The position numbers were made by a program, and so were the translations under genes. A DNA stretch of 46,812 bases. Source: Patescibacteria group bacterium (GTDB lineage Bacteria > Patescibacteriota > Minisyncoccia > Phycocordibacterales > JACZSL01). Under the pieces are notes generated by a model. That model worked only from the letters and a program-made list of their open reading frames with translations. It was not told the origin of the DNA and made no database searches. How positions within the stretch are numbered: the first letter of the stretch is position 1; the number at the start of each line of letters is the position of its first letter. Of this stretch, positions 2,132-16,522 are shown piece by piece. The stretch is from contig JADFRL010000005.1 in NCBI GenBank assembly GCA_022561335.1, positions 1 to 46,812 on the forward strand, written 5' to 3'.

Positions 2132-3946
2132 TCATTGTTGCTGCAAAGAAACTGCCGGCAAGTATAGACCGAGCAACTCTCGTTCCCATATTTGACCGTC
2201 GTTACTCCGCTTCTCTTTCGATGTGAAGGTATAATTATAAAGAATTGCTCGGATAAATGTCGGTGGTCTCTCGGGAAAAGGATTCTCCTCAAGAAGCGAG
2301 AGCACGGGTTTTGATCCTTCAAGAAGACGAGTTGCAAAATTAAGAATCCATGGAGCATTTTGATAATTTCCAGCAAGCGCCGCGAACCACATCTGCCAAT
2401 CAAGGCGTGGTTGATGAGGTGCAACAATCGGAAGCGTCCGATTGAGAATCCCTGGTTTATACTTAAACTCATACGCAAACCACTCCTCTCCATCATTAGA
2501 ACCTTCGATAATAATCTCAGGTCGACTCGTCGTCATGTGTGTAAAGAGTCCATAGGAGTTTGATATGTGCAGTGGGGCAATAATTTTTGATACAGAGCGC
2601 GCAGATTGAGGCATTGACCCTGTAGATTTCTCCACAATTTGAAAAACACCAACAAATATTAGAACGAATGAAATAATACCTATTATAATACGACCAAAAA
2701 TTGGCAATATTTTTTCTTTTTTGCGCTGAATATAGTTCCGTGTCGCCTGAGGTAAAACATATCTGATAAACAAAATTGCTCGATCATCAAACAAGAAAAT
2801 TATTGCGGCGATGGTCAATAAATTGAAATAATTATAATTCCCTGTCAGTAATATGAGCACCTCAAGAACAATAAACACATATCCGGCAAATATTCGAATG
2901 CGGCGTGGCGCAAAAATAAAAAAAGGAACTATAACCTGACTTACAAATATAAGCATCGTTGAAATTTCGTGAAACCATAGAGGCAGTTGGTGTGCATACC
3001 AAGAAAGTGGCATCGGCAGTGGTTGAGTCTCGTAGTGATAAGAAAGCGCAGTTAAATTCTGCCACGTTACATCACCACCAAAAAATTTACCTATTCCTGA
3101 TAAAATTACAAATTTGAATACAAGTAAGCGAAAGAGCCATATAACACTTGAAGTAAATGACAAAAGAATTGCTAAAAATCCAACCTCAAGGAGAAAAACA
3201 TCCCATTGATAAGACATGAAAAGTTGTCCAGCAGAAACGAGTGAAAGATACACAATAAAAAGAATGATGAGATTTGTACGCTGAAAAAATCCTATCAAAA
3301 GAAGGACAGAGCTGATGAGACCAATCAGAAAAACAAAATCAAGAAATACATTACTTGCAGATATCCAGAAAAGACTTGGGAGTATGAGATATGCTTGAGT
3401 ACCTATCTCCAAAAATACCGCGTCAAAAAATTGTTGTGCTGGCAGAATCCCTTCTACACCAATAAGTCCTTTCATTTGAATACCGAAAGAAAGAATTGCA
3501 AAAAGATATACTAAAGCGAGCGATCGGAAAAAAAACCACTGGACAAATTTATACGAAGACGGTTCAAGGCGTTTTCCAATGAATAGACGGGTAAACCAGT
3601 ATGCAAAATTGCGATTTACTGAAACGAACTTATAGACAAATTCGGAAAGATAACCAAATCCAGGAATGTGCTCATAGAGCCACAAAAGCAATCTCCGTCT
3701 TGGATTGTATGCCAAAGTTTTAAAAGTTGCGTAAGCGCCACTGTAAACTTTGCCTTGGGGCATAATAAGCTTTACGGATTTTTCGAATTCGTCGCGTGAT
3801 ATATTTTCATATTTGTCCGCAACCTGCTGTAATGGTTGATATTGAACTTTACCGCAGGTTACCTTCTCTGAGTATTCAACCCACATACGACAAAATCGAC
3901 ACTCACCATTATAAACAAACAGTGGTTTTTTGCTGTCAGCTTCCAT
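2132..3946 (-). CDS. DCC thiol-oxidoreductase domain fused to lipase maturation factor-like membrane protein
   Basis: A 604-residue two-part protein. Residues 1-125 look like a DCC1/DUF393 domain, with the redox-like motif YNGECRFC (Cys16, Cys19). Residues about 130-440 hold many membrane segments. The tail, about 465-590, carries the lipase maturation factor (LMF1/DUF1222) signature: EGSNDGEEWFAYEFKYKPG, then PHQPRLDWQMWFAAL and an NPFPERPP segment. In animals LMF1 helps lipases fold in the ER; in bacteria the substrate is unknown, and the fused DCC part suggests thiol chemistry at the membrane. TATAAT lies 7 nt before the ATG, so the mRNA is probably leaderless. The family call is strong, the function inferred. 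Confidence 0.85.
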   Translation of the reverse strand: MEADSKKPLFVYNGECRFCRMWVEYSEKVTCGKVQYQPLQQVADKYENISRDEFEKSVKLIMPQGKVYSGAYATFKTLAYNPRRRLLLWLYEHIPGFGYLSEFVYKFVSVNRNFAYWFTRLFIGKRLEPSSYKFVQWFFFRSLALVYLFAILSFGIQMKGLIGVEGILPAQQFFDAVFLEIGTQAYLILPSLFWISASNVFLDFVFLIGLISSVLLLIGFFQRTNLIILFIVYLSLVSAGQLFMSYQWDVFLLEVGFLAILLSFTSSVIWLFRLLVFKFVILSGIGKFFGGDVTWQNLTALSYHYETQPLPMPLSWYAHQLPLWFHEISTMLIFVSQVIVPFFIFAPRRIRIFAGYVFIVLEVLILLTGNYNYFNLLTIAAIIFLFDDRAILFIRYVLPQATRNYIQRKKEKILPIFGRIIIGIISFVLIFVGVFQIVEKSTGSMPQSARSVSKIIAPLHISNSYGLFTHMTTSRPEIIIEGSNDGEEWFAYEFKYKPGILNRTLPIVAPHQPRLDWQMWFAALAGNYQNAPWILNFATRLLEGSKPVLSLLEENPFPERPPTFIRAILYNYTFTSKEKRSNDGQIWERELLGLYLPAVSLQQQ

Positions 3947-3959: not shown

Positions 3960-4078
3960 CAAAGTAAACTACTTAATAATTAATCGATTTTCGTAACTCC
4001 CTGTGGATTTTGGGAACTCAGAGACCACTACCACTGTTCAACAATGTTTAGGCCAGAACATACGCCCGTTCTAGGAAC

Positions 4079-4110
4079 GAGGTCCTAATGTCGTTCATTA
4101 ATCTCCACAA
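4079..4110 (+). repeat. 32-bp dispersed repeat, copy 2
   Basis: GAGGTCCTAATGTCG followed by TTCATTAATCTCCACAA matches 678-709 with two differences and in the same orientation. The two copies bracket about 3.4 kb containing the PH, coiled-coil and LMF genes. Confidence 0.7.
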
Positions 4111-4115
4111 TATAA

Positions 4116-4144
4116 AAAAACACCAGCTTAGTGCTGGTGTTTTT
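4116..4144. terminator. bidirectional terminator hairpin
   Basis: AAAAACACCAGC (4116-4127), loop TTAGT, GCTGGTGTTTTT (4133-4144): a perfect 12-bp stem with A- and T-runs, able to stop transcription both ways. It sits between the divergent LMF and 17-kDa-antigen genes. Confidence 0.65.
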
Positions 4145-4203
4145 CATATCATGATGTGGGAATTGAAAGACGGAAGCCCGCGTCCTGTGGACGAGGGTGG
4201 AGA

Positions 4204-4308
4204 GATTAAAGCTCTCCCAGAGCTTTAATCGAGTCGAGCGCACTTAGTATTTTGTAAGGCATTGAAACAAACTACTTAGGTAAAAGGAAGTTTAAACTTC
4301 CTTTTACC
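4204..4308. repeat. hairpin plus 30-bp perfect palindrome upstream of the lipoprotein gene
   Basis: GATTAAAGCTCT (4204-4215), loop CCC, AGAGCTTTAATC (4219-4230) is a perfect 12-bp hairpin. At 4279-4308, GGTAAAAGGAAGTTT is followed directly by its exact reverse complement, a 30-bp loop-free palindrome. A further small hairpin (CGTCC/GGACG) lies upstream near 4170. The 454-bp gap 3947-4399 therefore holds repeats and stems but no gene. Possible roles are an operator, a structured 5' leader or a recombination scar. Confidence 0.6.
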
Positions 4309-4399
4309 GTGACCAATTTCCATATCTCCAAAACTATTGACAACTCTGCTCTTTGAAGACATTCTAATTACAGATGATAACTGGATGGGAGAAGTGAAA

Positions 4400-4885
4400 A
4401 TGCCTAGACAAATAAGACGGCTGCTCATTGTCGCTCTTGTCGTGCTGGTACTTCCGCTTGGTGCTTGCGCGGGTGGAAGAGGCGGGAAGGAAGTCGGCGG
4501 CACTCTCATTGGTGCCGCTCTCGGCGGGCTCGTTGGTTCCCGGATTGGCGGTGGCTCAGGCCAGATCGTCGCTACCGTAATCGGCACCCTCCTCGGTGGT
4601 TTCATCGGTAATGAAATTGGGAAAAGACTCGATGAGCTTGACCGCAGGAAGGCCGGGCAAGCGCAATATAGTGCGCTTGAGTACCAGCCAGACAACACAA
4701 GCGTGGTATGGGATAATCCAAATACCGGTAATTACGGAAGCTTCGTACCGACAAGAACTACCGTGACGAGATCGGGACAACCTTGCCGCGAGTTTCAGCA
4801 ATCGGTCACTGTCGGAGGACAAACCGAAAGGGCATACGGAAGAGCATGCCGCGATGCCGGTGGTCAGTGGCAGATTGTCAATTGA
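4400..4885 (+). CDS. 17-kDa surface antigen-like lipoprotein with glycine-zipper 2TM domain
   Basis: I place the start at the internal ATG (MPRQIRRLL): it has GGGAGAAG about 6 nt upstream and gives a clean lipoprotein signal peptide ending in LGAC, with the lipidated Cys near residue 22. The glycine-zipper repeat follows (GGTLIGAALGGLVGSRIGGG and GTLLGGFIGNEIGKRLDE), typical of Rickettsia 17-kDa antigen/OmpA-like 2TM proteins. The C-terminal part, with PCREFQQSV, QTERAYGRACRD and GGQWQIV, matches the usual end of such proteobacterial surface antigens. In those hosts the protein belongs to the envelope. The gene is visibly richer in G+C than its neighbours and has an SD, so transfer from a proteobacterium is likely. 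Confidence 0.85.
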   Translation: MPRQIRRLLIVALVVLVLPLGACAGGRGGKEVGGTLIGAALGGLVGSRIGGGSGQIVATVIGTLLGGFIGNEIGKRLDELDRRKAGQAQYSALEYQPDNTSVVWDNPNTGNYGSFVPTRTTVTRSGQPCREFQQSVTVGGQTERAYGRACRDAGGQWQIVN

Positions 4886-4915: not shown

Positions 4916-4958
4916 AGAGAGCCTTGCGCACTCAGCACGTGTGGGGTTCTCTTTTTTT
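4916..4958 (+). terminator. Rho-independent terminator after the lipoprotein gene
   Basis: AGAGAGCC (4916-4923) pairs with GGTTCTCT (4945-4952, one G-U pair), followed by TTTTTT. It starts about 30 nt after the stop codon. Confidence 0.6.
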
Positions 4959-5118: not shown

Positions 5119-5191
5119 GCCCCACTTGGACAACTAGTGCCCAAGTGGGGCACAAAATTGACAGTTATATTCTCAAGGGGTATAACTGTCA
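5119..5191. promoter_or_regulatory. two consecutive 11-bp-arm inverted repeats with 11-nt centres
   Basis: First unit: GCCCCACTTGG (5119-5129), 11-nt centre, CCAAGTGGGGC (5141-5151). Second unit: TGACAGTTATA (5159-5169), 11-nt centre, TATAACTGTCA (5181-5191). Both arms are perfect, both units are 33 bp, and they are 7 bp apart. They lie just upstream of the gene at 5219, so an operator pair, a leader of two hairpins or recombinase sites are all possible. The rest of the 334-bp gap 4886-5218 shows only the terminator. Confidence 0.7.
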
Positions 5192-7519: not shown

Positions 7520-8749
7520 TTACCCAAAAGTAAAGGCAAACGCTTCAATCCCCTCGTTAAGAAATCGGACTTCGAGAACATGCTCCCCGTAGTCGCCCTT
7601 GAGATCGACAAGGTTATACAGACTGTTTGTACTAAACGTCACTATCCCTTTTGCTACATCTGAACCACTGTTTGCAGTATGTACCAATTCTCCATCTAGA
7701 TAGACCTCTGCTTTTACATTACCTCCTTTTGTCCCCGCTACTAGATTCACTTTATTTGCCGAAAAATGAATGAAAAGTGAGCCCTCGTCGCTCTCAAGCG
7801 TTGACTCTTCAAGATTAATGATCCACGTGCCGTCAAGCTCATAGGTATTAAGGGCTGTCTCGGCGGAAGCTTTATATTCACACACAACACCAAAGCAGTC
7901 TAACGAAGGAAGATTGGCAATATACTCAATGCGCGTACTACCCAAATAGACCTCTGGAGTGCGCACACGGCTAAAGTCAACCGCATCAATATCTTTCGGC
8001 CTGCTTGGGTCCATGGCAACCACCTCTTCCTTTAGCTTTAGCACATCACTTCGCTCATTTAACAGCTCAACTATTTTCTTCTCCGTTTCTTCGTAAGCAC
8101 CCTCGCCAATATGATCGTAAACAATAAATCCATCGATATCGATGAGGTATTTGCGCGGCCAATAGCGATTGCGATACGCTGTCCATGTTGAAAAATCATT
8201 ATCGAGAATTACCGGATATACAACGCCAAATTTTTCTACGGCTCGGAGAACATTTTCATATTCCTTTTCAAACTCAAATTCCGGTGTATGAATACCCAAA
8301 ATAACAAGCCCTTTGTCATTATACTTTTCGTGCCAGCTATTTAGAAACGGAAGTGTCCGCTGGCAATTGATACAGCTATAGGTCCAAAAATCAACAAGAA
8401 TTATTTTTTTGCCGATAAGCTCGGAAATCGTAATGTTATCTATATTAATAAAACCATCAGGTGTTGAAATTTCTTTCGCCGTCTCAAACAATTCTTTTTT
8501 AGATGCAATACGCTCTTCCGCTGAAATCTTACTTGAACCAGATTCCACCATTTCGCTGCCCGCACCGATTCTATCGCCTATTTCAGCACCTGAAGATTTA
8601 TTAAGCACCAATTCCTCTATATCAATATTGCCGCTCTCGGAAGAACCCACCCCGCTGCGAGACACTTTTTTCGATTCAAGATAAAAGATGCCGCCCACGA
8701 TCGAAAGCATTACTACAGCAAGAATAATGTGATGTTTGTTTATATTCAT
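7520..8749 (-). CDS. membrane-anchored TlpA/DipZ-type thioredoxin-like protein
   Basis: A 409-residue protein: an N-terminal anchor (residues about 7-24), a low-complexity acidic/serine linker, and a thioredoxin-like domain from about 100 to 235. The active site is WTYSCINCQRTLPF (Cys126, Cys129), the same CINC form as mycobacterial DipZ. A C-terminal beta-rich domain (about 265-409) resembles the DipZ thioredoxin-like C-terminal domain. It is expected to reduce or shuffle disulfides outside the membrane, receiving electrons from the CcdA homologue encoded just upstream. In DipZ the two parts are one polypeptide; here they are separate. The ATG is flush with the 3' arm of an inverted repeat. 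Confidence 0.85.
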   Translation of the reverse strand: MNINKHHIILAVVMLSIVGGIFYLESKKVSRSGVGSSESGNIDIEELVLNKSSGAEIGDRIGAGSEMVESGSSKISAEERIASKKELFETAKEISTPDGFINIDNITISELIGKKIILVDFWTYSCINCQRTLPFLNSWHEKYNDKGLVILGIHTPEFEFEKEYENVLRAVEKFGVVYPVILDNDFSTWTAYRNRYWPRKYLIDIDGFIVYDHIGEGAYEETEKKIVELLNERSDVLKLKEEVVAMDPSRPKDIDAVDFSRVRTPEVYLGSTRIEYIANLPSLDCFGVVCEYKASAETALNTYELDGTWIINLEESTLESDEGSLFIHFSANKVNLVAGTKGGNVKAEVYLDGELVHTANSGSDVAKGIVTFSTNSLYNLVDLKGDYGEHVLEVRFLNEGIEAFAFTFG

Positions 8750-8863
8750 CCCGTTAGTAGTAGGACACGGATAGTATAGTACCGTTTCCTTTGATTAGTG
8801 TATGAATAAATATCGATAATGTGTTCATAGTATTGTTGCAGTGTCCGTGACTACTAACGGGAT
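8748..8863 (-). promoter_or_regulatory. fold-back leader of the TlpA gene (CCCGTTAG element)
   Basis: The plus-strand arms ATCCCGTTAGTAGT (8748-8761) and ACTACTAACGGGAT (8850-8863) are exact complements, with an inner GGACAC/GTGTCC stem (8763-8768, 8841-8846). On mRNA read through from ccdA, the 3' arm ends in CTAACGGG followed directly by the ATG. A TATACT box (8773-8778, minus) lies inside the loop, so a transcript starting there would lack the 5' arm and could not fold this way. Confidence 0.65.
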
Positions 8864-8889
8864 TCATTGCAATAAATATTTCGCTTGCT

Positions 8890-9603
8890 CTACGTCGCTA
8901 ATAAAAATCTATTAAGAAGTTCGAAGTTTGCGATTCGATTCAGACTTTCTGTAAAAACAAGCACGCCTAGTACAATAAGAACAATACCGAATATGATATT
9001 TACGTATTTAAGAGATTTCGCATACTTGTTTATAATACCCACGGCCCCTGATGCAAATAAACCAACAACAAGAAAAGGTAGCCCAAGCCCTAATGAATAG
9101 GACATGAGAAGCGAGAAAGCCGAACCCGGATTACTTGCGGCAAGGCCTAAAATTGCGCCGAGTGCCGCCCCAACGCACGGCGTCCATCCTGCCGCAAAGG
9201 CTGACCCAAACACAAATGAGGTCACATAGCGCGATTTAAATTTCCTGGTAACCCGAAATTTATGCTCTCGCTCAAGAAAATCAATCTTGAGAAGGCCTGT
9301 GAGATAAAGACCGAAAGCTATAATCACCACACCTCCGATGCGTGCCAACCATGTTTGAGCCTCATAAGCAACTCCCGCAAGTACCGTATTAAGAAGAACA
9401 CCGAGAAGCGCAAATACAGTAGAAAATCCAAGAACAAAGAAAACACTGTTTAAAAATATTACCAATCGCTGTCTTCCTTTACTTTCTTCAAGTGAGACTC
9501 CAGAAAGATACGCGAGAAAGCCCGGAATAATCGGCAATACACACGGCGAGAGAAATGACACAATTCCCGCAATAAATGCAATTACTAAAGAAATTTCAGA
9601 CAC
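8890..9603 (-). CDS. ccdA: CcdA family thiol-disulfide electron carrier
   Basis: A 237-residue six-helix membrane protein with both conserved Cys motifs of the CcdA/DsbD transmembrane family: SFLSPCVLPIIPGF near residue 20 and GWTPCVGAALGAILG near 140. It carries reducing equivalents from cytoplasmic thioredoxin across the membrane. The next gene downstream encodes a TlpA/DipZ-like thioredoxin, the natural partner. A second, divergent CcdA-like gene lies at 33.5-34.4 kb. Length and topology are normal. Confidence 0.9.
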   Translation of the reverse strand: MSEISLVIAFIAGIVSFLSPCVLPIIPGFLAYLSGVSLEESKGRQRLVIFLNSVFFVLGFSTVFALLGVLLNTVLAGVAYEAQTWLARIGGVVIIAFGLYLTGLLKIDFLEREHKFRVTRKFKSRYVTSFVFGSAFAAGWTPCVGAALGAILGLAASNPGSAFSLLMSYSLGLGLPFLVVGLFASGAVGIINKYAKSLKYVNIIFGIVLIVLGVLVFTESLNRIANFELLNRFLLAT

Positions 9604-16065: not shown

Positions 16066-16258
16066 ACCCGACAATATTTGACCGATGGCGATACACCGCC
16101 ATCTGATTATTGACCGGCTCTCACCGGCAACGAGATTCGGGGCTAATCACCTCGGATAGGGACCTTCGGGTCCCTCGTATCAACGTCTCCCCAGACGTGA
16201 AGCCTCCCTGAATGAACTCGCCGGGCCATCTCAAAAGATGGTCCGGTTTTTTTACTTG
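16066..16258 (+). ncRNA. candidate structured non-coding RNA
   Basis: About 190 nt without an ORF but with a row of stable stems: ATGGCG/CGCCAT, CCGG/CCGG, CGAG/CTCG, AGGGACC-TTCG-GGTCCCT with a stable UUCG loop, ACGTCT-CCCC-AGACGT, and a terminator CCGGGCCATCT/AGATGGTCCGG followed by seven T residues (16221-16253). A TTGACA promoter lies upstream. I compared it from memory with tmRNA, RNase P RNA, 4.5S SRP RNA and 6S RNA and found none of their signature sequences. The family is therefore unassigned. Both boundaries are approximate. Confidence 0.6.
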
Positions 16259-16283
16259 TTTTTACTTAGTCAAAATTTCAGGA
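16183..16283 (+). repeat. about 100-bp direct repeat, copy 1 (3' half of RNA candidate plus map end)
   Basis: From ACGTCTCCCCAGACGT through the terminator to CAAAATTTCAGGA; identical to 16423-16522 except for one C in the CCCC run. It carries a copy of the last codons of map (the residues P-E-I-L-T-K read on the minus strand), so it arose by duplication of the RNA/map junction. Confidence 0.9.
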
Positions 16284-16381: not shown

Positions 16382-16496
16382 TTGACATACGTAAAGCAAC
16401 CTAGTACATTCAATACGGATCCACGTCTCCCAGACGTGAAGCCTCCCTGAATGAACTCGCCGGGCCATCTCAAAAGATGGTCCGGTTTTTTTACTT
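16382..16496 (+). ncRNA. possible second short RNA made from repeat copy 2
   Basis: TTGACA (16382-16387), 17-nt spacer, TACATT (16405-16410) precede repeat copy 2, which keeps the ACGTCT/AGACGT stem and the terminator. If active, it would give an RNA of about 80 nt ending at the 3' end of map on the opposite strand. Confidence 0.4.
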
Positions 16497-16522
16497 GTTT
16501 TTACTTAGTCAAAATTTCAGGA
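16423..16522 (+). repeat. about 100-bp direct repeat, copy 2
   Basis: Matches 16183-16283 with a one-base deletion. Its last 22 bases are the genuine 3' end of map, so this copy marks the original junction. The 140 bp between the copies shows no ORF that I would call coding. Confidence 0.9.

Follow-up and report, generated by a model that had tools for sequence, protein, structure and literature searches.

A 17-kDa surface-antigen-like protein with a retained lipobox cysteine in an order of Patescibacteria without detected Lgt

The gene at positions 4400-4885 of the window, which is the whole 46,812-nucleotide stretch analysed here (contig C32 of a Patescibacteria, or CPR, genome), is a genuine chromosomal gene of a CPR bacterium, and its product carries a lipobox whose cysteine is kept in all CPR copies found, in an order where Lgt was not detected. 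The explanation that best covers the whole, with a probability of about 0.6, is that of a chromosomal CPR gene, probably of alphaproteobacterial origin and then inherited vertically in several families, encoding what would be a Sec-exported SlyB-like oligomer with a disulfide domain outside, anchored without Lgt or by an uncleaved signal. The gene and its surroundings comprise the following features:

4068-4110, plus strand: dispersed intergenic repeat, also present at 667-709 and on contig C24
4116-4144, no strand: terminator-like inverted repeat (by sequence) between the LMF1-like gene and the lipobox gene
4279-4308, no strand: perfect 30-bp palindrome (by sequence) upstream of the gene
about 4386-4393 (approximate), plus strand: Shine-Dalgarno-like GGGAGAAG
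4400-4885, plus strand: 17-kDa surface-antigen-like gene with glycine zipper and lipobox, 161 aa (PF05433 and PF16998 over curated cut-offs)
4400-4468, plus strand: signal peptide MPRQIRRLLIVALVVLVLPLGA and lipobox cysteine C23 (sequence, hydropathy)
4490-4621, plus strand: glycine zipper with two predicted membrane helices, residues ~31-74 (PF05433 at residues 33-74; profile match to SlyB 7ojf)
4652-4882, plus strand: C-terminal 17kDa_Anti_2 domain, a beta sheet with C129 opposite C150 on a hairpin (PF16998, model)
4927-4953, plus strand: weak terminator-like stem and T-rich tail (by sequence) downstream of the gene

The original prediction had described a proteobacterial-type envelope lipoprotein with the lipobox LGAC, a glycine zipper, a C-terminal surface-antigen block and a strong Shine-Dalgarno sequence, and all of these were recovered. 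The Pfam search placed PF05433 at 3.8e-11 (43.2 bits versus a cut-off of 24.2), and PF16998 at residues 85-161 with 2.2e-11 (44 bits versus a cut-off of 26.6), the latter domain with both of its conserved cysteines. By this architecture the protein is assigned to the RT0821/Lpp0805-type 17-kDa surface antigens, and a location at the cell surface is plausible. A type II signal peptide with lipobox (LGA|C, the cysteine being residue 23) could be read from the sequence, preceded by a hydrophobic h-region at residues 7-22; the strict G+LPP lipoprotein pattern does not match this copy, since a proline precedes the lipobox. The Shine-Dalgarno-like GGGAGAAG lies 5' of the ATG at 4400, and alternative in-frame starts are found upstream at 4337, 4385 and 4394.

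Palindromes were reported to flank the gene, and this holds for those at 4279-4308 and 4116-4144 and for a further stem at 5119-5151. The repeat beside it, previously given as 32 bp, does exist, albeit with a size of 43 bp: 4068-4110 and 667-709 are 88% identical. Related repeats, including 4158-4200 and 4233-4280, are dispersed over intergenic parts of 4068-4280 and recur on contigs C24, C4, C18 and C21 of the source genome, and the upstream flank of the gene is therefore native. An Rfam search of the window gave no match, dispersed repeats included. Elsewhere in the window, a perfect 94-bp direct repeat (16190-16283 and 16429-16522) has a terminator-like palindrome within its sequence. Two thiol-related loci lie on the minus strand: a 604-aa fusion of a DCC1-like thiol oxidoreductase with LMF1 and LMF1_C lipase maturation factor domains (2132-3946) adjoins the gene, and a thioredoxin-fold protein stands beside a DsbD/CcdA-like membrane protein (7520-9603), a pair that is possibly an extracytoplasmic thiol system.

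The source genome (667 kb in 36 contigs, 89.7% complete, contamination estimate 4.27%) has one copy of the gene. A search with the protein alone matched 12 of 148 genomes, and a family profile at 1e-8 matched 20 of the 397 genomes examined from the same order, the source genome being included in both counts. Full-length copies were present in 17 of the 397 (about 1 in 20, source genome included), belonging to families f1, f20, f22, f30, f44, f52, f64, f71 and f81, while the other three profile-matching genomes had the zipper half only. The presence of the gene in related CPR genomes, proposed earlier as a check, is thus established within the order, and in a phylum sample of 380 genomes no match was obtained apart from the window's own copy. 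Outside CPR a genome-wide scan, which picks up close relatives only, returned ten loci with 41-52% identity, nine of them labelled alphaproteobacterial and one merely 'Proteobacteria'. Plasmid matches came mainly from Azospirillum and were annotated as 'RT0821/Lpp0805 family surface protein'. A phage as vector was rejected, as no relative was found among viral contigs and the only 'phage' match looks rhizobial; this sequence (MW462191.1), labelled bacteriophage, has its homologue beside ccm and phoP-like genes, resembles a piece of a rhizobial chromosome and is probably a mislabelled rhizobial contig.

Vertical inheritance could be followed from the gene neighbourhoods. In six genomes of families f44 and f22 the gene adjoins polA-tsaE, and in five of these six loci it is followed by a PilB-type ATPase, ruvB, yebC, ruvC, tyrS and a penicillin-binding protein (in G595 the contig ends). 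The f71 copies have common surroundings at two sites, and the f81 copies have common surroundings near ATP synthase genes. The conserved polA-tsaE-gene-PilB locus of f22 and f44, together with the shared surroundings in f71 and f81, therefore indicates vertical inheritance there, and the gene is old in some families. In f1, the family of the source genome, the gene was absent from the two other sampled genera, and a recent arrival in the source lineage is therefore possible. The phylogeny with alphaproteobacterial homologues, which the original prediction had called for, fixed no donor, and a single CPR clade was not rejected by the AU test (p 0.196 and 0.168). The trees leave the order of events unsettled, and the transfers are neither dated nor counted by phylogeny. 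Acquisition by CPR is plausible, as the closest non-CPR relatives are alphaproteobacterial and the gene is absent from the other sampled CPR orders, patchy within its own order and missing from the two other sampled f1 genera. The earlier claim of an acquired gene stands to this extent, whereas at the level of the family the evidence does not support a gain that was both recent and isolated.

High G+C had been taken as a further sign of foreign origin. The gene is indeed above its neighbours (0.561 versus a window gene mean of 0.432, sd 0.039), but a G+C of 0.524 is expected for this protein under the codon usage of the window, and the high value is thus mostly due to a protein rich in Gly and Ala. 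G+C was accordingly rejected as proof of foreign origin. The excess at third codon positions (GC3 0.522 versus an expected 0.402±0.039) is real but modest.

Two readings would remove the gene from the biology of the order altogether. Contamination, or a chimeric contig, could be invoked from the higher G+C, the proteobacterial character of the family and the 4.27% contamination estimate; we consider it scarcely credible, given the native repeats on the upstream flank, the position of the gene inside a contig with ribosomal-protein genes, the copies of relatives on long contigs (some of 150-412 kb) and the one locus conserved in two families, and the concern about an assembly error was not borne out. 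Alternatively, the source genome might have received the gene lately from an alphaproteobacterial host as a passenger, functionless so far and with the lipobox as a relic. The GC3 excess, the two f1 genera without the gene and the highest identity of the window copy, to an alphaproteobacterial sequence (L014, 57% over 138 trimmed columns), point in this direction. On the other hand, the end branch of the window copy measures 0.8 substitutions per site, its frame, Shine-Dalgarno sequence and domains are intact, and the same kind of gene is inherited vertically elsewhere in the order with an intact lipobox, so that a recent passenger appears distinctly improbable.

Lgt is the enzyme that lipidates lipobox proteins. 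With PF01790, Lgt was not found in any of the 27 genomes searched in the order, which included the 17 carriers, and none of 80 genomes of the order had a TIGR00544 match over the cut-off; a single one of the 80 gave a match of 14.6 bits, far below the cut-off, and the carriers gave none. In the phylum-wide search TIGR00544 detected Lgt in 221 of 362 CPR genomes, none of them listed as belonging to the same order, which shows that the method works in CPR, while the lack of a match in the B. subtilis control means that its sensitivity is incomplete and that a very divergent Lgt could escape. Lgt was present in only three listed genomes of the class to which the source order belongs. LspA, searched by PF01252, exceeded the cut-off in only one of the 27 genomes (L075, on contig C5 of G101). 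A 19-bit LspA match in the source genome was rejected, being a short frame in what reads from the sequence as a PilM/N/O-like pilus cluster. The LspA of G101 excepted, no lipidation machinery (Lgt, LspA) was found over the cut-offs in the genomes of the order that were tested; this weakens the case for conventional lipidation of the 17-kDa antigen but leaves its assignment to the protein family untouched.

The lipobox cysteine itself was retained in all 19 CPR copies (17 genomes, two of them with a second copy), where it ends a hydrophobic stretch and is preceded at position -1 by Gly, Ala or Ser in each case; the C-terminal cysteine pair was likewise present in 19 of 19. Among the six syntenic orthologues, which are 34-75% identical with a tree length of 4.7 substitutions per site, no column of the N-terminal signal part other than the cysteine is invariant, and an average site would be retained over that length with an estimated chance of about 1% (exp(-4.7)). 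Other lipobox-like proteins in genomes of the order include an M48 peptidase near the gene (G031) and trypsin-like peptidases near the gene (G116, G595), and lipobox proteins besides this family are L059, L060, L067, L121 and L199. Lipobox frequencies in CPR stretches with and without Lgt were 7 of 1137 and 3 of 1062 genes, respectively (p 0.35, few cases).

A kept cysteine without a recognisable Lgt implies either another way of lipidation in some bacteria or another use of the lipobox cysteine, and this small protein (161 aa) lends itself to testing both options. It is conceivable, if somewhat doubtful, that the entire order has lost Lgt and LspA and that its lipobox cysteines are still modified, by an enzyme with little or no relationship to Lgt and with the acquired surface protein as one substrate; if true, bacteria would have a second route to lipoproteins, much as archaea have a separate one of their own. 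That the lipidation is conventional, and the Lgt and LspA of the order too divergent for the HMMs, strikes us as unlikely: the complete retention of the lipobox, the presence of a few other lipobox proteins in these genomes and the unmatched B. subtilis control are in its favour, but the same search that detects Lgt in CPR genomes of other groups finds none over the cut-off here, and the two models (PF01790 and TIGR00544) agree. A very improbable alternative is a protein that acts on the host: after transfer to a diderm host, it would be lipidated and inserted into the host outer membrane by the Lgt, LspA and Lol of that host. This would account for a lipobox kept without enzymes of its own, and CPR are often epibionts, many with a type IV secretion system (PMC12102498); against it, an unsystematic look revealed neither a transfer signal nor a T4SS gene nearby, and the idea is pure inference.

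The chromosomal, vertically inherited gene with a SlyB-like product is thus the reading that we favour. SlyB (7ojf) was found by sequence profile at positions 4-80 (E 9.6e-7) and weakly by fold (E 0.021). The zipper region was modelled with low confidence (block pLDDT ~47-68), whereas the C-terminal half shows strands 128-138 and 141-151 with pLDDT ~95; C129 and C150 lie on facing strands in the model, which is consistent with a disulfide between them. According to the proposed mechanism, the gene was probably taken from an alphaproteobacterium and has since been inherited vertically by several families within one CPR order. Export of the product would be by Sec, its glycine-zipper helices would pack into oligomers in the single membrane of the cell, as those of SlyB do in the outer membrane of E. 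coli, and the disulfide-stapled beta domain would face outwards. Anchoring would depend on the hydrophobic N-terminus together with the lipobox cysteine. Either this cysteine would be modified by a pathway that does not resemble Lgt, or the uncleaved signal would hold the protein in place; both options are suggested by an order without detected Lgt and almost without LspA.

The closest known counterparts are the alphaproteobacterial RT0821/Lpp0805 proteins (PF05433 and PF16998), which share with the window protein their length, lipobox, glycine zipper and a C-terminal domain with the conserved CREFQ...ACR cysteines, at 41-52% identity. They differ in setting, as the CPR order has no detected Lgt and CPR are generally described as lacking an outer membrane, the latter being a proposal in the literature for Patescibacteria (PMC12102498). 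SlyB of E. coli (PDB 7ojf/7ojg) has a similar lipobox and glycine-zipper membrane part, but a different C-terminal half: the profile match stops at position 80, no SlyB-type C-terminal half was found in the window protein, and its C-terminus is PF16998. SlyB oligomerises into ring-shaped transmembrane complexes and works around outer-membrane proteins in the outer membrane (PMC13067283), unlike the single-membrane setting considered here, and a similar ring is conceivable for the window protein, which resembles SlyB in sequence and, weakly, in fold. Haloarchaeal lipobox proteins, although unrelated and from another domain of life, offer the parallel of a conserved lipobox cysteine in cells without homologues of the bacterial lipid-modification enzymes (PMC2945643); the archaeal enzymes are reported to be non-homologous to the bacterial ones (PMC13251419). 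In the present case, a protein family from the envelope of diderms has been retained by vertical inheritance in bacteria presumed to have a single membrane.
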